This document shows, piece after piece, positions 4,625-35,694 of a stretch of 37,654 bases of DNA. The stretch covers positions 1 to 37,654 of the IMG/VR virus record IMGVR_UViG_3300027899_000035; one strand, written 5' to 3'. How positions within the stretch are numbered: position 1 is the first letter of the stretch; each line of letters opens with the position of its first letter. The translations under genes and the position numbers were made by a program. Source of the DNA: a virus. The notes under the pieces were generated by a model, which was given only the letters and a program-made list of their open reading frames with translations, did no database searches and had not been told where the DNA came from.

Positions 4625-5823
4625 TTTCCTCCTCTAAAAACCATTTTTTGTCCAGTTTGTGGATCAGTAGCTGTTTTCCCTTCGTTAATTATCTTTCCGT
4701 TAATTATAGAATATTTGCCTTTAGACACAATTGTTGGATTTAATGGTTTTATTCCTAGTTCTTTTGCAGTTGAATTAAGATTTTTTATTTTTGTTTCAAT
4801 AAATGATCTAAGAACTGACTCTTTTTCTTCTGGGGACATTCCAGGATCTCCAAGGGTAGACTTTAGAGACTCACCTTCTTTTAGTGTAAATTGTGCGCCA
4901 AAAGTATCTCTTAGTAAAGGCAGAATCTCGTTATCTACAACAGCGATATATTCTCTTCTTGAAACTGCGCCTTGCGGGACTGATAATCCTAATTCTCTCA
5001 TAACTGTATTTCCAGCCACACCTAAACCAGTGTAGGTTGCAGTCTCGCCTAGTTTACTTAATTTATTTACCGTGTTAATTAATTGAGGCATTTTAGAAGA
5101 AGCTGATTGTAATAATGTTGTTTTTTCACCTCTAACTTTTCCAATTTCTTCTTGTTGTTTTTTAAACGTTCCAAGAGTTATTCCTTGATCTCTTGCCAAC
5201 TCTCTTTCTTGTTCAACATCTAAAAATTCGCCTCTTGATTTTGCAATATCAATATTGCCTTTAACCATATCTTGCTTAACTTTCTGAATATCAACGCCAT
5301 ATTTAGCTTGTTGGAAACCTTCAGTTTTAATTTGTGCAGCTTGATATTGTTCTTTTAAATCTTGCTCTCTTCCTTTTAAACGAGAAGAAAGACGTTTAAA
5401 TTCTAAAATTGCTTCTGGTGATTTATCAGAAGGCAAAGGTAATTCTTTACCAGTTGCTTCAAAATACTCATTGTGCATTTGTTCCCATTTTTTTTGAGAA
5501 AAGGCATATTGCGGCATTGAACTATAAGAATCTAAAACTCTAGCACCTTGAACGTCATTATAATCTTGTTGTTTTCTTATTCCTTCCGCACGAACAGGGT
5601 TTAACCCAGCAAGTCTTTGAAGGGCGTTTTGATCGCCCATTGAGGCTGTTTGTGATAGAATATTTTCAGCTTGAGCTTGTGCAAATTTTTGTTTGTTAAT
5701 ATCTATTTCTTGTTCGGCAGCAAGAAGCTGTAGTTGGTTAGCTTTTGCTTGCTGACCAAACTGATAGCCTTTAAGAATATTACCTACATAATCTGGGGTT
5801 TGTTGCTGAATTAATTCTGGCAT
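4609..5823 (-). CDS. DNA-ejection (internal virion) protein, P22 gp20-like
   Basis: 404 aa, mostly helical and Gln/Lys-rich. The start (DYVGNILKGYQFGQQAKANQ) followed by a long coiled region resembles phage DNA-transfer proteins that leave the virion ahead of the genome. The C-terminal part (SRREYIAVVDNEILPLLRDTFGAQFTLKEGE, broken here into motifs DNEILPLLRDTFG and QFTLKEGE) is a pattern common to this position in many podoviruses and siphoviruses. It overlaps the upstream stop by one base (TAATG) and the downstream gene by 16 nt, so translation is coupled across the ejection cluster. Confidence 0.6.
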   Translation of the reverse strand: MPELIQQQTPDYVGNILKGYQFGQQAKANQLQLLAAEQEIDINKQKFAQAQAENILSQTASMGDQNALQRLAGLNPVRAEGIRKQQDYNDVQGARVLDSYSSMPQYAFSQKKWEQMHNEYFEATGKELPLPSDKSPEAILEFKRLSSRLKGREQDLKEQYQAAQIKTEGFQQAKYGVDIQKVKQDMVKGNIDIAKSRGEFLDVEQERELARDQGITLGTFKKQQEEIGKVRGEKTTLLQSASSKMPQLINTVNKLSKLGETATYTGLGVAGNTVMRELGLSVPQGAVSRREYIAVVDNEILPLLRDTFGAQFTLKEGESLKSTLGDPGMSPEEKESVLRSFIETKIKNLNSTAKELGIKPLNPTIVSKGKYSIINGKIINEGKTATDPQTGQKMVFRGGKWQNQ

Positions 5824-16074: not shown

Positions 16075-17610
16075 TTAATACCCTGTTATTAAATTTCTAT
16101 TACTTGCATTCAAATACTCTTCATAAGCCCAGTCATCAACAAAACCCTTTTGCTCTTGTGCGTAAGTCTCTAATCGATGAATTGAAGCTGCGAAAGTTTG
16201 GAAAGCATCTGCACCATTTGAGTTAATATCGTGCAACGGCTGATCCATGAAGCAACCAAGTTTGTCATTGAATTTCTTGCGATATTCTCTAAGCCTACTA
16301 ATACCCGTCTCACATCTCTTTTGATCGAACCAGCAGCGACTTATGATTGCTCTTGCTTCATTGATTGAGTCCATCTTGTTTGTTGCTCTTGTTATCTTTT
16401 CAAACTTAAAGCCAAAGTTTGAAGCAATCTCTATTCCATCTTTGCCGTCATAATAGCTTCTTTTTGCAATATCGTGCGGCGCAAAATGTTTTCCGTAGTT
16501 GTAATTCTTTTCTTTTAATATCTTGAAGTAAAAAGGAAGCGGCTCCTCGCTCATCTCGTAGTAATCAACAATCATAAAATCATAGCCTTTTTTCTGAAAG
16601 AACCAAATGCAAGTTGTATCGTTAATTCCCAAATCCCAAGCAGTATGTACTGGTAAGTTTTGATCTATCCCGACCCTGCTAATCCTTCCATCTTGTTCTG
16701 CTTTGATTAGTTCCTTCGACCAATATGCGCCAACAATTGCCTTTTGAAATGCTTCCTTTGAATTGCTTGGAAACTCTTGCTTCATCAAGTCGCCTTGAGT
16801 TTCTTCTTTCTTACAATACCAAGTTTGTTGCTGTCTCGTTAGCTTTATACCTTCATCTTCAAGTTCTAAAAAATAGTCGTTTTGTTTATCATTCAAGATA
16901 TAATCAGCATTCATCTGATACTTGCGATCCTTCCACCATCCAAAAAAATGAAACTTCCAATCGAGTGGCGTCAATTCATCTCTCATCCTCATCTTTCTTT
17001 CTGCCACATCACATAGATTAAAGAAGTGTCCGCTTGCGCCTTGTGCCGTGCTTTCAATAACTATTTGTTGTCCTTGGTGTACTGTGTTAAGTGAACCGCT
17101 CATAATCTCTTCGGCTTTGTCCGGTGATTTTCTGCATATCTTTCCAAACTCTGTAATATGCAAGCGTTGAACTGTGCCAGACCTTGCGCTTGTAGTTACT
17201 GAATAACTCGAGCCGTTACTGAACCGCATGATCTCCGTTGAGTCTGTAATTAATTGTCTAAGCTCTTTAATCTCCGCGGGCAGTCTATCGTACGCGTAAC
17301 GAACTTTGTCTCTAAGTAGTTTCTTTGCATCTTCCAAGTCATCACCAATTAAAACCGCGGTAATGTTTGAATTGAATAAGCAATCATCAAGATAATTAAT
17401 GCAATAGAATGTTGTAATTCCAAGTTGTCGCGCTTTCAATACAATATTAAGAGGATGCTTTTCTTCGATTAATTCGCTTTGAGCTTCGTTACAAATAAAC
17501 TTAAATTCTTTCCCGTTCTCATCTTTGCAATAATATAAGTTTGACATGCGCCAAGCCTTATCAGCAATGTTCTTCTTGAATTGATCTAATGCTTGAGTGC
17601 TATGCTTCAT
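16075..17610 (-). CDS. terL: Terminase large subunit
   Basis: 511 aa from ATG 17610, which overlaps the upstream stop as ATGA; a longer frame from 17649 would overlap the 59-aa gene and is not preferred. ATPase domain: Walker A-like KARQLGIT (about 59-66), a 'LHITEFGK' Walker B-like segment (Glu near 154), and the coupling motif 'VIESTAQG' (about 184-191). RNase H-like nuclease: 'HTAWDLGINDTT' (Asp near 326), 'APHD' (Asp near 380) and 'DINSNGADAF' near the C-terminus. It drives DNA into the procapsid through the portal and cuts the concatemer. Confidence 0.9.
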   Translation of the reverse strand: MKHSTQALDQFKKNIADKAWRMSNLYYCKDENGKEFKFICNEAQSELIEEKHPLNIVLKARQLGITTFYCINYLDDCLFNSNITAVLIGDDLEDAKKLLRDKVRYAYDRLPAEIKELRQLITDSTEIMRFSNGSSYSVTTSARSGTVQRLHITEFGKICRKSPDKAEEIMSGSLNTVHQGQQIVIESTAQGASGHFFNLCDVAERKMRMRDELTPLDWKFHFFGWWKDRKYQMNADYILNDKQNDYFLELEDEGIKLTRQQQTWYCKKEETQGDLMKQEFPSNSKEAFQKAIVGAYWSKELIKAEQDGRISRVGIDQNLPVHTAWDLGINDTTCIWFFQKKGYDFMIVDYYEMSEEPLPFYFKILKEKNYNYGKHFAPHDIAKRSYYDGKDGIEIASNFGFKFEKITRATNKMDSINEARAIISRCWFDQKRCETGISRLREYRKKFNDKLGCFMDQPLHDINSNGADAFQTFAASIHRLETYAQEQKGFVDDWAYEEYLNASNRNLITGY

Positions 17611-17786
17611 ATACCACCCAATCCATAACCGCGCCAACCCAGAACCCAAGCTTTTCTTTTGTCCGAATCATCAGATAAACTTAACACATATTCGTTTAAC
17701 TCTTTTTTCTCATCTTCAGAAAGCTTGTTCCATTCGCCTTCTAAAGTTGTCAGATTTTTAAGTTTGAGTTCTAAATTATTATTCAC
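17607..17786 (-). CDS. 59-aa protein coupled to terL (GTG start)
   Basis: 59 aa, starting at GTG 17786-17784 inside the stop region of the upstream gene (8-nt overlap) and ending in a TGA that overlaps the terL ATG (ATGA). The first part is a charged helix (LTTLEGEWNKLSEDEKKEL) and the end is 'RKAWVLGWRGYGLGG'. The last part recalls the 'W-----GRG-GKT' Walker A region that opens many terminase large subunits, although the lysine is missing. It may be a terminase accessory protein or a leftover. No ORF longer than this occupies the gap. Confidence 0.5.
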   Translation of the reverse strand: MNNNLELKLKNLTTLEGEWNKLSEDEKKELNEYVLSLSDDSDKRKAWVLGWRGYGLGGI

Positions 17787-17967
17787 AATTACTTAAATCA
17801 TTATTAGCAAACATCTCTTGCAACATCTCAACAGCAACAAGTTTCTTAAAATCTTCTCGCTCTTCAATTACCGCAAATTTCTTATCATCTGTGAATCTAA
17901 TAATTTCAAAAGAATTAGGCAGACTTTCAAGATTCATGACGTAACTTGTAACGCTTAAATTTTTCAT
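17779..17967 (-). CDS. Hypothetical 62-aa protein
   Basis: 62 aa from the ATG at 17967 (MKNLSVTSYVM). The open frame extends 33 codons upstream but that part overlaps the 64-aa gene in another frame and has a shadow-like composition, so the shorter start is preferred. The C-terminal half is helical and acidic (EEREDFKKLVAVEMLQEMF). Not recognised. Confidence 0.5.
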   Translation of the reverse strand: MKNLSVTSYVMNLESLPNSFEIIRFTDDKKFAVIEEREDFKKLVAVEMLQEMFANNDLSNCE

Positions 17968-17974
17968 TTTTTGA

Positions 17975-18169
17975 TTAATTGATCTCAACAATATTATCAT
18001 CAACACTAACAACAACATGCTCGCGCCCATCTTTAATGTAATAATCTCCGAGCTTGATTTCTTCAATATTTCTTAAGTTCAAAGATTTGCGATTGTTATC
18101 CAAAACTATTCCCGCAACTTCAGCTTCATCAAATCTTTTCAAAAATTCTTTTTTTGTTATCTTTTCCAT
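17975..18169 (-). CDS. Hypothetical 64-aa protein
   Basis: 64 aa with a helical start (KITKKEFLKRFDEAEV) and beta-strand end (GDYYIKDGREHVVVSVDDNIVEI), suggesting a small alpha/beta domain. It is part of the leftward chain from terS to terL, with a 7-nt gap to the next gene. Its start is preceded by GGAAA (reading leftward TGAGGAAATAAAATGG), a usable SD. Function unknown. Confidence 0.55.
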   Translation of the reverse strand: MEKITKKEFLKRFDEAEVAGIVLDNNRKSLNLRNIEEIKLGDYYIKDGREHVVVSVDDNIVEIN

Positions 18170-18190
18170 TTTATTTCCTCAATTTATTGT

Positions 18191-18394
18191 TTATTGACTC
18201 GCTTTAATCAACCAGAAGTGCATCGCCGCGTCTATTTTCTTAATAGCATTTTTCTCTTGTTCAATGCTCTCATCTATTTTTCTCAAGTCATCCAAAAGAA
18301 TTAAATATCTTGCCGAATCACATTTAACGTTGCGAGCAATCATTGCCGCATCAAATTTTTCAGGATTTTCGCGGATCCATTTTATGTCTAGCAT
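18191..18394 (-). CDS. Truncated seryl-tRNA synthetase N-terminal arm
   Basis: 67 aa. The first ~17 residues, MLDIKWIRENPEKFDAA, match the start of alphaproteobacterial SerRS almost word for word; 'LILLDDLRKI' and 'NAIKKIDAAM' then follow the spacing of the SerRS 'L..LD..RR' and 'N..SKEIGAAM' segments. After this the protein stops, so only the start of the tRNA-binding coiled-coil arm is present and the whole aminoacylation domain is missing. It cannot charge tRNA but might bind tRNA or tRNA-like RNA. It sits between terS and the small genes before terL. Alternative: a captured host fragment with no function. Confidence 0.7.
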   Translation of the reverse strand: MLDIKWIRENPEKFDAAMIARNVKCDSARYLILLDDLRKIDESIEQEKNAIKKIDAAMHFWLIKASQ

Positions 18395-18397
18395 ATT

Positions 18398-18847
18398 TTA
18401 TTTATTATTATCAATCTCACTTAACACTTCACCAAGCCATGAGCTAGTTGCGCTAGTGTCTTTGATTTCAGCTTGCACTTTTGTGTAATCTCCGAATTTT
18501 TTTGGCTTCAATTTTGAAGCGACCCATTTTCTAGCATCTACTCTCAAGCGACTGCGCGCGATTACTTCCTGATTTATTACTTCTCTTCCATCTTCATCTA
18601 AGTAAGTGTCATCTTTTTTATAGTCAGAGATATCTATTATTTCATCAACTAATAATTCAGCTTGTTCTTCTCGTGCGCGAGCGTATTGATTGCTTAACTC
18701 TTCGTTATTATTCAACCACTTCCAAACACTCGTTAAATTCGGCATCTTCTCATCTCTGCAAATCTTACGCAACGACTCACCTTCGGCAATTCTCACACAT
18801 ATTTGATCGAATATTTCTTGGCTAAATGTTACGCTGTTTTTTAGCAT
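18398..18847 (-). CDS. terS: Terminase small subunit
   Basis: 149 aa, first gene of the leftward block. N-terminal HTH (residues about 8-45: FDQICVRIAEGESLRKICRD, then SVWKWLNNNEELS) for DNA recognition, a helical oligomerisation region (ARAREEQAELLVDEIIDI), and the C-terminal family signature 'IARSRLRVDARKWVASKLKPKKFGD' (key residues R-RLRVDARKW...KLKPKK-GD). It binds the pac/cos site and loads TerL. Small-subunit next to large-subunit order is normal, though five small genes separate them here. Confidence 0.85.
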   Translation of the reverse strand: MLKNSVTFSQEIFDQICVRIAEGESLRKICRDEKMPNLTSVWKWLNNNEELSNQYARAREEQAELLVDEIIDISDYKKDDTYLDEDGREVINQEVIARSRLRVDARKWVASKLKPKKFGDYTKVQAEIKDTSATSSWLGEVLSEIDNNK

Positions 18848-27417: not shown

Positions 27418-27645
27418 ATGAAAGATATAATATTGATAATATTAGCAATGTTTTTATTCATTTCTTTTTTAGCTGGCGCAGCTTTTTCACAAAAAGATAG
27501 ATGTAATTATACATCCATTCTTTCAAGGGTAAATTTGGCTTTTGTTGCTGGTTGTGAGTTGACAAGACCAAGATTTGAACCGTATAAACCTAATCAAAAT
27601 CAAACGGATTTATACACTTTAAGGTTGACAGCAAATTTTAGTTAG
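27418..27645 (+). CDS. Small exported/membrane protein with C-terminus altered by transposon insertion
   Basis: 75 aa. A signal-like N-terminus (IILIILAMFLFISFLAGAAFS) is followed by a short Cys-containing extracytoplasmic part (two Cys). The last 14 codons (27605 onward) lie in the left inverted repeat of the inserted element. Joining the sequence before the element to the sequence after its right-hand duplication gives ...NQNQNIS and stop, i.e. the original end. The insertion therefore hit the extreme 3' end and may leave the protein functional. Function unknown. Confidence 0.5.
   Translation: MKDIILIILAMFLFISFLAGAAFSQKDRCNYTSILSRVNLAFVAGCELTRPRFEPYKPNQNQTDLYTLRLTANFS
27605..27628 (+). repeat. 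Left terminal inverted repeat
   Basis: 24 bp, beginning CGGATTTATACAC and ending AAGGTTGA; it is the exact reverse complement of 30814-30837. The -35 box of a strong promoter starts within its last bases. Confidence 0.9.
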
Positions 27646-27653
27646 TCTAAAAT
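27625..27653 (+). promoter_or_regulatory. Strong promoter at the left transposon end
   Basis: TTGACA (27625-27630), 17-nt spacer, TAAAAT (27648-27653): consensus -35, ideal spacing and a five-of-six -10. It points into the transposase and cargo genes. The -10 lies within the inverted repeat at 27641-27674, a likely operator. Confidence 0.75.
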
Positions 27654-27674
27654 CTTTTTTAGATTTTAACTAAC
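27641..27674 (+). promoter_or_regulatory. Inverted repeat over the -10: operator or leader hairpin
   Basis: GTTAGT-C-TAAAATCT, loop TTTT, AGATTTTA-ACTAAC: 14 paired bases with one bulged C. It overlaps the -10 and the start point, so a repressor (or transposase itself) could bind it; in RNA it would fold into a leader hairpin just before the transposase ATG at 27686. Confidence 0.6.
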
Positions 27675-27685
27675 CAAAAACTGTT

Positions 27686-28567
27686 ATGAATATTTTAGAG
27701 TTAATAAATAAATTTCCAACACAAGAGTCCTGCATTAAACATTTAGAAAATGTTAGGTGGGGCGATAAAGTAAAATGTGTTTATTGTGAAAGTGAAAACA
27801 CTAACTCACTAAAAGCAGAACTTCGCCACCATTGCAACGGTTGCCGCAAGTCTTTTAGTGTTATTGTTGGCACAATCTTTCACCACACGCACATTGATTT
27901 ACAAAAATGGTTTTTAGTTATGTCTTTAATGTTAAACGCAAGAAAAGGAGCATCAAGTTGTCAAATAGCAAGAGACTTAGGAATGAGACAGCCAACAGTT
28001 TGGTCAATGATGTTGAGAATCAGAAAAGCGATGAAAGGAAGCCAAGCAGAGCTTTTAAATGGAATAGTTGAGATGGATGAAACCTATATTGGCGGTAAGC
28101 CAAGGAAAAGAAACAATGATAAGGATGATGATGGCAATTTGCCAACAATTAAAAGAGGTCGTGGCACTAAAAAAGAGTGTGTAGTTGGTATGATTGAGCG
28201 AGGCGGAAAAGTCAAAACAATCATTCAGAAACGCTTAAAATTTGTGGACTTGAGAGGAATTGTAAAGAATAATGTCGATGTTTTAAATAGCGTTTTAATG
28301 ACTGATGATTTTAAGGGTTATAAACCAATGAAAGGCTTTATCCCGCATCACACAGTCAATCATAGCAAGAAGCAATATGTTAATGGCATTATCCACACCA
28401 ATACAATTGAAAGCTTCTGGGCTATAGTTAAAAGAGGAATGATGGGGCAATTTCATTGGGTTAGTAAGAAATATTTAGAAAAATATATGGACGAATTTTG
28501 CTGGAGATTTAATAATAAAGAAAATCCAGCAATGTTTAATCAACTATTAATTAATACAGTTAGATAA
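27686..28567 (+). CDS. IS1595-family-like transposase
   Basis: 293 aa. N-terminal zinc ribbon (C31-x2-C34 ... C50-x2-C53, CVYC and CNGC), an HTH (about 80-115, 'SCQIARDLGMRQPTVWSMML'), then a DDE-type core: 'EMDETYIGGK' (Asp131), 'MTDDFKGY' (Asp207/208), and 'HTNTIESFWAIVKRG' (Asn239, Glu242 and Lys249 region; IS1595 uses a DDN(E)-K motif). This zinc ribbon, HTH and ISXO2-like core is the standard IS1595 plan. It ends with TAATG, overlapping the ATPase start by one base, so the cargo is translationally coupled to it. Confidence 0.85.
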   Translation: MNILELINKFPTQESCIKHLENVRWGDKVKCVYCESENTNSLKAELRHHCNGCRKSFSVIVGTIFHHTHIDLQKWFLVMSLMLNARKGASSCQIARDLGMRQPTVWSMMLRIRKAMKGSQAELLNGIVEMDETYIGGKPRKRNNDKDDDGNLPTIKRGRGTKKECVVGMIERGGKVKTIIQKRLKFVDLRGIVKNNVDVLNSVLMTDDFKGYKPMKGFIPHHTVNHSKKQYVNGIIHTNTIESFWAIVKRGMMGQFHWVSKKYLEKYMDEFCWRFNNKENPAMFNQLLINTVR

Positions 28568-29898
28568 TGGAATATAGAGAGTTTATATTGGAAAAATATA
28601 GAGCCGTAAATCAACCTATAACTATCAAGGTTGATGAGAATAAACTATTTTGTATAATAGGTGAAAATGAGTGCGGAAAAAGCACTATATTGCAGGGAAT
28701 TTATGCCTTTGATTATTCCAATGATGCTATGACCCAAGGGGTGCATTTAAAAGATGTTGGAAATTTGTATAACATTGGAGACAACAATATAGCAAAAATA
28801 AAAGCAATAATAAACATCGCTAATTCCAAATCACAAATTAATGAAATAATAAAGAGATTCAATCCTAATGCAGAAGGGATTGATTTAGATTTATTGACTA
28901 TAACTAGAACAATTAATGGCAAAACTTTTTACTCAATTCAAGAACTACAAAATGAAACAGAAGAAGTGCAAAATTCTGTTTCTAAAGAAATTATTAACCA
29001 TCTACCAAAGATTATCTATTTTGATGATTTTACAGACCCATTGCCCAACAAAATAAATTTGAAAGATGAGCAATTTAGAACTTGGATTAATGTAGTTGAT
29101 TTATTGATACAAAGCATTGATAACGACGCTAAATTAACAATACAAAGTTTGCTTGATAGTAATAGTAGCGATAATTTGGTAAAATCAATTTGTGCCTCTA
29201 TGTCAAAAAAGCTAAATATTACTATAGTTGAACAATGGAAAGAAATAAGATTAGAAAAAGACGGCGTTAATTTTAAAATAGAAGTAGAATTTGATAGAAG
29301 TAAGAACACCTTAGAATTTAAGCTAATTGAGAAAGTTAATGACCAAGATGACAGATATTTTGATATAAGACAAAGAAGCAAAGGATTTTATTGGTTTTTC
29401 AATTTTGTAATGAGAACGGAGTTTAATCCAAAAGGTAGTTTTGGAAATGAAAAGGGGGTAATTTTCTTATTTGATGAGCCAGGGGCTTATCTACACGTTT
29501 CTATGCAAAATAGTTTATGTAAAAAACTAAAACTATTATCTAACAAAAATGTAGTTGTGTATTGCACTCATTCCCCAGAATTAATAGATTATGAGACTAT
29601 AGATAAAACTTGGATATGCTATAGGGATATGTCTAATAAAGGTAATATTCTGTTAAAAATGGCAGAAGATTTTTATCAATTGGAAAAATTAGATAAAAAT
29701 AGAAAGCAAATAATAATTGAGCCATTAATAAATAAATCAATCATACACGATCTTTATAATTTAAAAGAAGACAAGGATGAGAAATTTAAAGGAACTAAAG
29801 AAATTCTTAAAAAAGCAGGAAGTGTCTTATATGATGAACTTAAGGATATTGCGACTACTACAGCCGCAAAAACAATAAAAGAGTTCAGTAAATCCTAA
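28567..29898 (+). CDS. ABC/OLD-like AAA ATPase, transposon cargo
   Basis: 443 aa. Walker A GENECGKST (residues 32-40), a possible signature region 'RQRSKGFYWFF' (268-278), Walker B 'IFLFDEPGAYLH' (299-310, DEP at 303-305), and an H-loop 'THSPELI' (334-340). This is the AAA_15/AAA_21, OLD-like ATPase type that powers many anti-phage systems. No TOPRIM nuclease domain follows, only a ~90-residue charged helical C-terminus, so the effector would be in a partner. It is coupled (TAATG) to the transposase and followed after 12 nt by the peptidase gene. Confidence 0.8.
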   Translation: MEYREFILEKYRAVNQPITIKVDENKLFCIIGENECGKSTILQGIYAFDYSNDAMTQGVHLKDVGNLYNIGDNNIAKIKAIINIANSKSQINEIIKRFNPNAEGIDLDLLTITRTINGKTFYSIQELQNETEEVQNSVSKEIINHLPKIIYFDDFTDPLPNKINLKDEQFRTWINVVDLLIQSIDNDAKLTIQSLLDSNSSDNLVKSICASMSKKLNITIVEQWKEIRLEKDGVNFKIEVEFDRSKNTLEFKLIEKVNDQDDRYFDIRQRSKGFYWFFNFVMRTEFNPKGSFGNEKGVIFLFDEPGAYLHVSMQNSLCKKLKLLSNKNVVVYCTHSPELIDYETIDKTWICYRDMSNKGNILLKMAEDFYQLEKLDKNRKQIIIEPLINKSIIHDLYNLKEDKDEKFKGTKEILKKAGSVLYDELKDIATTTAAKTIKEFSKS

Positions 29899-29910
29899 TC
29901 ACATTTAAAT

Positions 29911-30429
29911 ATGAATATTTTAGAAAAAATTACAGATGAATCTCATAGAAAGATTTATTTAAAATATGCTTCTATACCACCACCTTTTGATGTTGTGGGT
30001 TTTGGTTTAGAGCTCGGATTAGAAATTAAAGAAAGTGGCGAATTGCCTAATAAAATTAGTGGCTTTATCAAACAAATAGAAAATGGTAAAATATCAATTT
30101 GTGTTAATAAATCACACGCTCCAAACAGGAAGAGATTTACAGTTGCTCACGAATTGGGACACTATTTTTTGCATAGAGATAGATTAGCCGTTGGTATTAT
30201 AGATGGAATATTAAATAGAGAACAAGGAACAACCGATCCAATAGAATATGAAGCAAATGACTTTGGTGCAAATTTATTGATGCCAGAAGAGTTATTTACT
30301 CAACTATGGAAACAGAAAGATAGCTCAATTAGTGATATGGCGTTAATATTTCAAGTATCGGAAAGTGCGATAATTACTAGGGCTAAATTTTTAAATTTAG
30401 CACAAGATTATTCAGGTTATTTTGCTTAA
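29911..30429 (+). CDS. ImmA/IrrE-type zinc metallopeptidase, transposon cargo
   Basis: 172 aa. A helical N-terminus (SHRKIYLKYASIPPPFDVVG) precedes a gluzincin motif HELGHYFLH (His80, Glu81, His84) and, 30 residues on, 'EYEANDFGANLLMPEEL' (Glu114 as probable third ligand), the IrrE/ImmA signature 'E--A--FAA-LLMP'. Family members cleave repressors in phage induction, ICE transfer and DNA-damage response, and also occur in toxin-antitoxin and defence cassettes. No HTH domain is fused here. It lies between the ATPase and a membrane protein. Confidence 0.8.
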   Translation: MNILEKITDESHRKIYLKYASIPPPFDVVGFGLELGLEIKESGELPNKISGFIKQIENGKISICVNKSHAPNRKRFTVAHELGHYFLHRDRLAVGIIDGILNREQGTTDPIEYEANDFGANLLMPEELFTQLWKQKDSSISDMALIFQVSESAIITRAKFLNLAQDYSGYFA

Positions 30430-30433
30430 GAAT

Positions 30434-30793
30434 ATGACAAAAGAAAACTTAGATAAAACAATTCTAGCTCAGAATAATATTGGTATTGATCCGAATAACC
30501 TTAATAATTTGATAAAAAATGCGAATGATTTACAAGAAGTCTTAAGACCTCATATTGTTTGGGATAATAAAATAGGAATTTGGCTAAATATTCTTAATAA
30601 GGTTTTTCCAATTCTCCAGAAATATACTGTGATTATTCTCTCTATCTGGTATGCCATAACTCACATAATTCTATCTGATACAACTCAAAAAATATTAGAT
30701 TTTATAATAACAAAAGTAAGTGATGTTTGGATGTTGCTAATTATTTGCTCTACTTTGGTTTCGTTGTCCTTTGTAAAAAGGAAATATAAATAA
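30434..30793 (+). CDS. Two-helix membrane protein, transposon cargo
   Basis: 119 aa from ATG 30434; a TTG 4 codons earlier overlaps the peptidase stop but is less likely. Residues about 63-87 (FPILQKYTVIILSIWYAITHI) and 97-116 (VWMLLIICSTLVSLSFV) are hydrophobic helices; the N-terminus is soluble and Asn-rich. As last gene of the cassette, a membrane-acting effector or sensor is a reasonable guess. Not recognised as a family. Confidence 0.55.
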   Translation: MTKENLDKTILAQNNIGIDPNNLNNLIKNANDLQEVLRPHIVWDNKIGIWLNILNKVFPILQKYTVIILSIWYAITHIILSDTTQKILDFIITKVSDVWMLLIICSTLVSLSFVKRKYK

Positions 30794-30813
30794 TTTCCTT
30801 GATTTTTATTCAA

Positions 30814-30837
30814 TCAACCTTAAAGTGTATAAATCCG
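30814..30837 (-). repeat. Right terminal inverted repeat
   Basis: 24 bp, exact reverse complement of the left repeat; begins TCAACCTTAAAG and ends TATAAATCCG. It lies 21 bases after the last cargo gene's stop. Confidence 0.9.
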
Positions 30838-32929: not shown

Positions 32930-33598
32930 ATGATAAATATAGCAAAAGCGTTTATTGCAGCGCAAAAGGAAATGGGCAATGCAATCAAAGACAGTAAAAA
33001 TCCGTTTTTTAAGTCCGCTTACGCTGACCTTAATTCGGTTCGTGAAGCTTGCATTCCAGCATTAAATGCCAATGGAATTGCAGTATTGCAACCAATAGTT
33101 CAAATTGATGGCAAAAATTTTGTTAAAACACTTCTTTTGCATGAAAGCGGCGAATCAATAGAAGGTTTGACAGAAATTCTTTTTGCTAAACAGAATGATC
33201 CGCAAGCCCAAGGTTCAGGAATTACTTACGCTAGACGTTATGGCTTGCAATCTTTGGTAAATATTGGTGCAGAAGATGATGACGGCAATAAAGCAGCAGA
33301 AAAGCCAAAAGAAGCAAAAAAAGAATCAACTAAAAACGCTTTTGGTCTTTCTAAAAATGGTGATTTAGCTTCTGGTGCAGATATGACTGAAACTCTTGAG
33401 AATGAAAATAAGGAGCTAGTTAAGCGACTTACCGCTAGAATCAATCAAATGGGAAGTGCGGCAGAGTTACAAGGCTGGCTAGAAGAAAAGGCTGTCAAAA
33501 CAGCTTATGCCAAACTTGATAAATATTTTTCAGAGGGTTTTGCTGAAGTTAAAAAAACCGAATTATCTAAGTTTCAAGAATTAGATCCTAATGATTAG
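32930..33598 (+). CDS. erf: ERF-family ssDNA-annealing recombinase
   Basis: 222 aa. 'FIAAQKEMGNAIKDSKNPFFKSAYADLNSVREA' (key: QKEM--A-KDS-NPFF-S-YADL--V), 'ALNANGIAVLQPI' and 'GSGITYARRYGLQSLVNIGAEDDDGN' (key: G-GITYARRY-L---V-I--EDDDGN) are the defining ERF signatures. The Lys/Glu-rich linker and C-terminal helical domain follow. It anneals complementary single strands for phage recombination and circularisation, acting with the SSB encoded 1.7 kb downstream. Followed by a 34-bp repeat that contains the next gene's SD. Confidence 0.9.
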   Translation: MINIAKAFIAAQKEMGNAIKDSKNPFFKSAYADLNSVREACIPALNANGIAVLQPIVQIDGKNFVKTLLLHESGESIEGLTEILFAKQNDPQAQGSGITYARRYGLQSLVNIGAEDDDGNKAAEKPKEAKKESTKNAFGLSKNGDLASGADMTETLENENKELVKRLTARINQMGSAAELQGWLEEKAVKTAYAKLDKYFSEGFAEVKKTELSKFQELDPND

Positions 33599-35250: not shown

Positions 35251-35694
35251 ATGGCAGTAAATAAAGTAATTTTAATCGGTAATGTAGGTCAAGATCCAGA
35301 AATAAAATCAACTCAAGATGGCAAAAAGATTGCTAATTTCTCGATTGGAATTTCTGAATCTTGGAAGGACAAACATTCAGGCGAACGAAAAAGCAAAACA
35401 GAATGGGTAAATATTGCTGCTTTTGGAAATATTGTTTCAGTAATTGAAAATTATGTTAAAAAAGGATCAAAGGTTTATGTAGAGGGAGCTTTGCAAACAA
35501 CTAACTATGTCGATGCGAATGGAGTAAAGAAATTTGCAACAAAGGTTGTTTTGCAGGGCTTTAATTCAACTATTCAATTGTTGGATGGCAAAAAGGATGG
35601 TGAAGTTTCGCAACATGCAATTGATAAAGGCAATGGTTATGCGCCAGAGTCTAATCATGTTGAAGAAGAGCAAGATTCCGAAATTCCTTTTTAA
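35251..35694 (+). CDS. ssb: Single-stranded DNA-binding protein
   Basis: 147 aa. OB fold at about 3-110: 'VNKVILIGNVGQDPEIKST' , 'IANFSIGISESW', 'TEWVNIAAFG', 'YVKKGSKVYVEGAL', and 'ATKVVLQGF'. The C-terminus is acidic and ends DSEIPF, the conserved tip that binds partner proteins. It coats single strands in replication and works with ERF in recombination. Confident call. Confidence 0.95.
   Translation: MAVNKVILIGNVGQDPEIKSTQDGKKIANFSIGISESWKDKHSGERKSKTEWVNIAAFGNIVSVIENYVKKGSKVYVEGALQTTNYVDANGVKKFATKVVLQGFNSTIQLLDGKKDGEVSQHAIDKGNGYAPESNHVEEEQDSEIPF

Follow-up and report, generated by a model that had tools for sequence, protein, structure and literature searches.

Complete aminoacyl-tRNA synthetase genes are known from phages. 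The N-terminal domain of one of these enzymes, seryl-tRNA synthetase (SerRS), recognises the variable arm of tRNA-Ser, and in animal mitochondria the SerRS paralogue SLIMP retains a catalytic domain in degenerate form (PMC10817482). Here we describe a phage gene that resembles the start of SerRS alone. It lies between the two terminase genes of the window, by which we mean the whole 37,654-nt stretch of viral DNA analysed (IMG/VR record IMGVR_UViG_3300027899_000035), in the following neighbourhood:

18398..18847, minus strand: small terminase subunit, Sf6-like TerS (Pfam 9.8e-42), upstream of the mini-protein gene
18191..18394, minus strand: gene of the SerRS-N-like mini-protein (67 aa), running from an ATG to a TAA stop; hits Pfam Seryl_tRNA_N with E 2.6e-7 and has a homologue at 4979-5206 of phage record L032
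17975..18169, minus strand: orf64, a 64-aa ORF with no assigned function; directly after TerS in phage record L033
17779..17967, minus strand: conserved 62-aa accessory ORF with no assigned function
17607..17786, minus strand: 59-aa accessory ORF with no assigned function
16075..17649, minus strand: large terminase subunit, TerL

The mini-protein, MLDIKWIRENPEKFDAAMIARNVKCDSARYLILLDDLRKIDESIEQEKNAIKKIDAAMHFWLIKASQ, is thus encoded directly beside an Sf6-type small terminase gene, as the first-pass annotation had it, and is followed by the 64-aa ORF, further small ORFs and then TerL. Its ATG lies 3 nt past the TerS stop codon, a spacing that fits translational coupling; a clear ribosome-binding site was not found for the gene in the window. 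No tRNA genes were found in the window.

Profile comparisons support a SerRS origin. The mini-protein matched Pfam PF02403 (Seryl_tRNA_N) at 31.3 bits, above the curated cut-off of 28.2, with residues 1-56 aligned to positions 1-57 of the 108-position profile. Nothing of the enzyme body follows, which bears out the earlier description of a gene for the SerRS start only. With a profile built from 94 SerRS N-domains, residues 1-22 by themselves scored 44.3 bits, a value reached by 0/500 shuffles, and residues 23-67 alone a marginal 4.2 bits, equalled or bettered by 9/500. When the true N-terminus was kept and only the tail shuffled, the observed total was reached once in 500. By these shuffle tests, the likeness is therefore overwhelming as far as residue 22 or so, weak though real from there to about residue 50, and absent beyond. 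The first-pass annotation had proposed some 17 nearly identical N-terminal residues and similarity for about 55 residues before it ended. The first figure was slightly low, as the best host SerRS match is identical over 22 residues. The second agrees with the end of the Pfam match at residue 56; the shuffles place the limit of weak but real likeness nearer 50, still well past the first few residues. The annotation was also right that there is no catalytic domain in or beside the ORF: an NCBIfam scan matched 0 models, including the SerRS equivalog TIGR00414 (class II catalytic core), no catalytic SerRS ORF was found next to the gene, and the next gene downstream is the unrelated 64-aa ORF. A PHROG scan gave no confident match.

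A related phage preserves an intact copy. Scans with TerL returned 37 loci, 33 of them near relatives with TerL identities of 64-96%. The annotation had called for a search for the same truncated gene in other phages; we found it in L032 (TerL 75% identical) as an undegraded 75-aa homologue, 43% identical over its full length and preceded by a clear ribosome-binding site, GAGGAA. This protein matched Seryl_tRNA_N just below the cut-off of 28.2 (25.9 bits, E 1.2e-5). Both phage proteins and all aligned SerRS share residues M1, D3, I4, K5, I7, P11, F14, D15 and R21, and every residue so shared falls within the first 21 positions, a conservation that is overstated because the SerRS comparison set was mostly picked by motifs such as DIKWIREN. 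The C-terminal halves of the two phage proteins aligned with a score of 85, against a maximum of 51 in 5000 shuffles (0/5000); on this alignment statistic, they are homologous beyond doubt. Identity at codon positions 1, 2 and 3 was 49, 67 and 40%, and by this codon comparison the protein is conserved while silent sites are saturated. The gene is therefore old and kept rather than a fresh accident. Together with the first 22 codons, which look recently copied from a host gene (see below), this suggests a retained imitation of a host enzyme rather than a broken leftover.

The gene is also rare. At the sensitivity of our searches, 2.9 million viral contigs, a set from which near-identical records may be missing, yielded it in only two phages. 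Scanning all fetched phage DNA with a profile gave no third copy, scans with TerL, TerS and orf95 gave no phage homologues beyond L032, and 50,697 deposited phage records contained no N-terminal-only SerRS gene. A candidate match in L005 proved to be an unrelated ORF. Most near relatives lack the gene, so it is dispensable.

Comparison with L033, whose TerL is 95% identical to that of the window, shows that the mini-protein gene was inserted cleanly between TerS and orf64: L033 lacks it and has orf64 directly after TerS. The TerS-TerL gap (16075-18394 of the window, and related loci) is a variable slot whose small ORFs, among them orf64, orf95 and orf59, come and go across the group; several relatives have another type of TerS in place of this one. 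This location raises the idea that the protein merely inherited a SerRS-like start and is now a small helical terminase partner, a packaging or late-operon accessory unrelated to translation. In both phages, TerS and TerL flank the gene, which belongs to an operon of variable small ORFs, and residues 29-61 weakly match the small-terminase family PHROG 2343 (E 0.053). However, such a weak match is of the kind any helix yields, the position is not fixed (the window copy precedes orf64 and the L032 copy follows it), and many relatives manage without the gene. We regard a packaging role as distinctly improbable.

Structure prediction indicates that the mini-protein holds only part of the SerRS tRNA-binding arm. 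AlphaFold2 placed helices at residues 4-9, 11-20 and 27-66 (pLDDT 91.8) and gave the L032 protein the same helix layout (pLDDT 92.2), although neither model is independent evidence of SerRS likeness because SerRS rows were present in both input alignments. Residues 1-67 of the window model aligned to residues 1-67 of Pyrococcus horikoshii SerRS with Z 4.5. In a Foldseek search with the window model, the PDB SerRS match was non-significant (E 6.2) and BFVD returned nothing significant. In SerRS the arm is a two-helix antiparallel coiled coil; here it is incomplete, with the profile match stopping at position 57 of 108 and the model forming one long helix, whose hydrophobic moment was no different from that of shuffles. 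The first-pass annotation's "free tRNA-binding arm" therefore overstates the case: the mini-protein has the first arm helix and lacks the second. This lone helix therefore probably pairs with some partner, be it itself, host SerRS or something else.

The composition of this helix bears on whether the mini-protein acts on tRNA-Ser. Such a role would have precedent in the recognition of the tRNA-Ser variable arm by the SerRS N-domain (PMC10817482), and the variable loop of a tRNA can be a target in phage defence, as when the Septu system cuts that of tRNA-Tyr (PMC13096335). In the profile register, both phage proteins also carry lysines at the positions of SerRS R38 and R51, and they share an N..KKIDA motif. 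Yet of the residues R38, Q45, Q48, R51 and N52, each of which is shared by 81-93 of the 94 SerRS, the window protein matches Q45 alone and the L032 protein none, a loss of tRNA-contact residues that we state with caution because it depends on the register of the profile alignment. The arm helix carries a net charge of -1 and -2 in the two phage proteins versus +1.9 (sd 1.2) in the 94 SerRS, and one of two arm helices is missing. We consider action on tRNA-Ser unlikely. Because most near-universal arm residues are substituted, some of them by lysine, and the helix is negatively charged, we favour imitation through protein contact over tRNA binding with moderate confidence.

The mini-protein gene is a mosaic, with a tip that closely matches host DNA and a remainder that does not:

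18329..18394, minus strand: host-like tract, codons 1-22, 62/66 nt identical to the serS of a freshwater Rickettsiales metagenome-assembled genome (G001, locus L075), with a 55-nt exact run
18191..18328, minus strand: the older, phage-derived part (codons 23-67), predicted to fold as one long helix; common to L032 (0/5000 shuffles), with no close SerRS

Bacterial genomes were scanned and gave hundreds of serS genes, of which that of G001 was the closest in DNA. The first 59 nt of the phage gene are 98% identical to it; the 55-nt exact run begins in codon 2, and no match extends upstream of the ATG. Other members of the same serS clade are 85-94% identical over 54 nt. Third-position identity to G001 serS falls from 91% in codons 1-22 to 39% in codons 23-60. 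Of the codons capable of synonymous change, 16/19 are identical, with P 1.4e-4 against the 0.41 background of unrelated SerRS and 0.05 against the clade mean of 0.645; since this also lies within the range of clade members, "recent" here covers the time span over which the host clade diversified. Special conservation of the serS 5' end as DNA or RNA was rejected as a cause: codon identity among hosts is 0.63 in codons 1-18 and 0.58-0.65 elsewhere in the gene, so shared constraint at silent sites does not account for the match. No other viral contig contains the tract's 28-nt core, and when the left 19 kb of the phage is compared with six host-clade genomes, nothing but this tract matches at the DNA level.

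Near-identity in codons 1-22 beside saturation in codons 23-60 argues that the 5' end was recently overwritten by a host serS. The L032 N-terminus is SerRS-like and has no comparable host DNA match, and the simplest history is thus that an old SerRS-derived phage gene had its 5' end replaced by host serS in the lineage of the window. The annotation had spoken of a captured host 5' end. A host 5' end does lie within the phage gene, although as one part of a mosaic rather than as a simple captured fragment. It had also proposed comparing DNA with candidate serS genes as a way to name the host, and the 98% identity over 59 nt points to the order Rickettsiales. On this DNA match, the host is probably an uncultured freshwater Rickettsiales lineage, that is, freshwater relatives of Rickettsia. 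The G001 SerRS falls in a separate Rickettsiales clade despite a record title of Rickettsia typhi. L067 and L075 are both freshwater metagenome-assembled genomes with that title, their SerRS fall in two distinct lineages, and the records are apparently mislabelled.

The right half of the phage holds a second link to these hosts, the gene for a single-strand binding protein (35251-35694), which alone in that half matches the six host-clade genomes, at 65-71% DNA identity. It also encodes a candidate agent of the serS exchange:

32930..33598, plus strand: Erf-like single-strand annealing recombinase

Erf-type recombinases exchange diverged sequences (PMC3945230), and the phage's own Erf may have carried out the replacement. 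As a separate observation, perfect 24-bp terminal inverted repeats at 27605-30837 bracket a cargo-carrying transposon inside the phage genome, which perhaps carries defence genes and also includes a 123-aa ORF:

27686-28567: IS1595/ISXO2-type transposase, within the 24-bp inverted repeats
28567-29898: OLD/AriA-like AAA_15 ATPase, within the 24-bp inverted repeats
29911-30429: ImmA/IrrE M78 peptidase with a CapP-like PADLOC match, within the 24-bp inverted repeats

An exact 55-nt identity with host serS at the start of a gene is of att-core size and would fit a phage that integrates at the serS 5' end; the annotation had considered an old attachment event. Three results count against an attachment site. 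Neither tyrosine nor serine integrases (PF00589, PF00239) were found above cut-off in the window, a linear fragment, or in 15 related or serS-carrying records, all of which may be incomplete; the tract sits between terminase genes; and no serS split by a prophage was seen among 344 genomes of the host order. An attachment site is thus largely refuted, and we hold it to be very improbable. Apparent truncated SerRS-N genes in those 344 genomes were also rejected: of the short frames inspected, those in G343 and G312 were contig ends, that in G224 was a frameshifted serS, and those in G004 and G005 were weak matches to other small proteins (IscA-like).

Phages acquired serS sequence on more than one occasion. 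Two other records carry complete serS genes upstream of a portal gene (L002 754-2034 and L003 6001-7281; TIGR00414, 532.7 bits) together with terminase, portal and head genes, and a sister record, G043, has a tail sheath. Their SerRS is sister to the mini-protein's host clade with full support, and their serS resembles that clade just upstream of the start codon. The flank downstream of serS differs between the two by insertion or duplication. In their sister L004 (1756-1863), an in-frame internal deletion has cut serS down to 36 codons, which encode its first 20 and last 16 residues; the N-terminal 20 or so SerRS residues survive in this remnant also. These records are a different phage group, probably infecting the same host clade, so serS-derived sequence would have entered phages of that clade at least twice.

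Such capture and decay lend some credence to the idea that the mini-protein gene is itself a non-functional relic, a piece of serS gained by recombination and now drifting like the 36 codons of L004, and most relatives lack the gene. A drifting relic is hard to square, however, with an intact homologue in L032 whose protein is conserved while silent sites are saturated, with the good ribosome-binding site there, or with the gene's clean insertion downstream of TerS in the window. We judge a relic quite unlikely.

The reading we prefer, though only tentatively, is an old SerRS-derived phage gene whose tip was replaced by host serS and whose product acts as an imitation of the SerRS N-terminus. 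Its origin steps, SerRS derivation and recent 5' replacement, are supported by the sequence comparisons. On this evidence the old accessory gene derives from the N-terminal part of a SerRS, comprising two short helices and the first coiled-coil arm helix, and in the window lineage recombination with a freshwater Rickettsiales serS replaced the first 22 codons. The mini-protein may then be produced during infection along with TerS and imitate the host SerRS N-terminus by protein-protein contact. It could bind SerRS or nascent SerRS subunits and alter tRNA-Ser charging, or it could soak up a host factor that recognises the SerRS N-terminus. A tip taken from the host would let the imitation stay in step with whatever host the phage currently infects. 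A bolder version, in which the phage keeps a host SerRS N-fragment as modulator or decoy and repeatedly refreshes its tip by recombination with the current host's serS so that the imitation tracks the host, would make this a phage modulator built from a piece of an aminoacyl-tRNA synthetase; it strikes us as somewhat unlikely.

A retained N-terminal-only synthetase piece suggests that a phage may regulate or imitate host translation through a synthetase fragment. The serS mosaic also gives an otherwise unassigned phage group a sequence-based host, the uncultured freshwater Rickettsiales lineage, and provides an example of host-gene exchange that can be tested and in which an Erf-type recombinase may have been the driver.

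By analogy, the mini-protein may resemble phage accessory proteins that imitate a host component, as it is proposed to bind through likeness to a host molecule. To our knowledge, an imitator derived from an aminoacyl-tRNA synthetase would be unusual, and our literature search found no comparable synthetase-derived phage imitator. With the bacterial SerRS (TIGR00414) N-domain PF02403, the mini-protein shares the Pfam match, the order of helices 1-3 and 22 residues identical to a Rickettsiales SerRS, but it lacks the second arm helix and the catalytic core, and most near-universal arm residues are changed. Full-length phage SerRS, annotated in Brevundimonas jumbo phages and found here in L002 and L003, are likewise SerRS-derived genes in phages; those are complete enzymes, whereas the window gene has no enzyme part. 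The SLIMP/protostome mitochondrial SerRS heterodimer (PMC10817482) also includes a SerRS-derived protein, with tRNA-binding and catalytic functions split. SLIMP keeps its degenerate catalytic domain, whereas the window encodes a phage protein of 67 aa.
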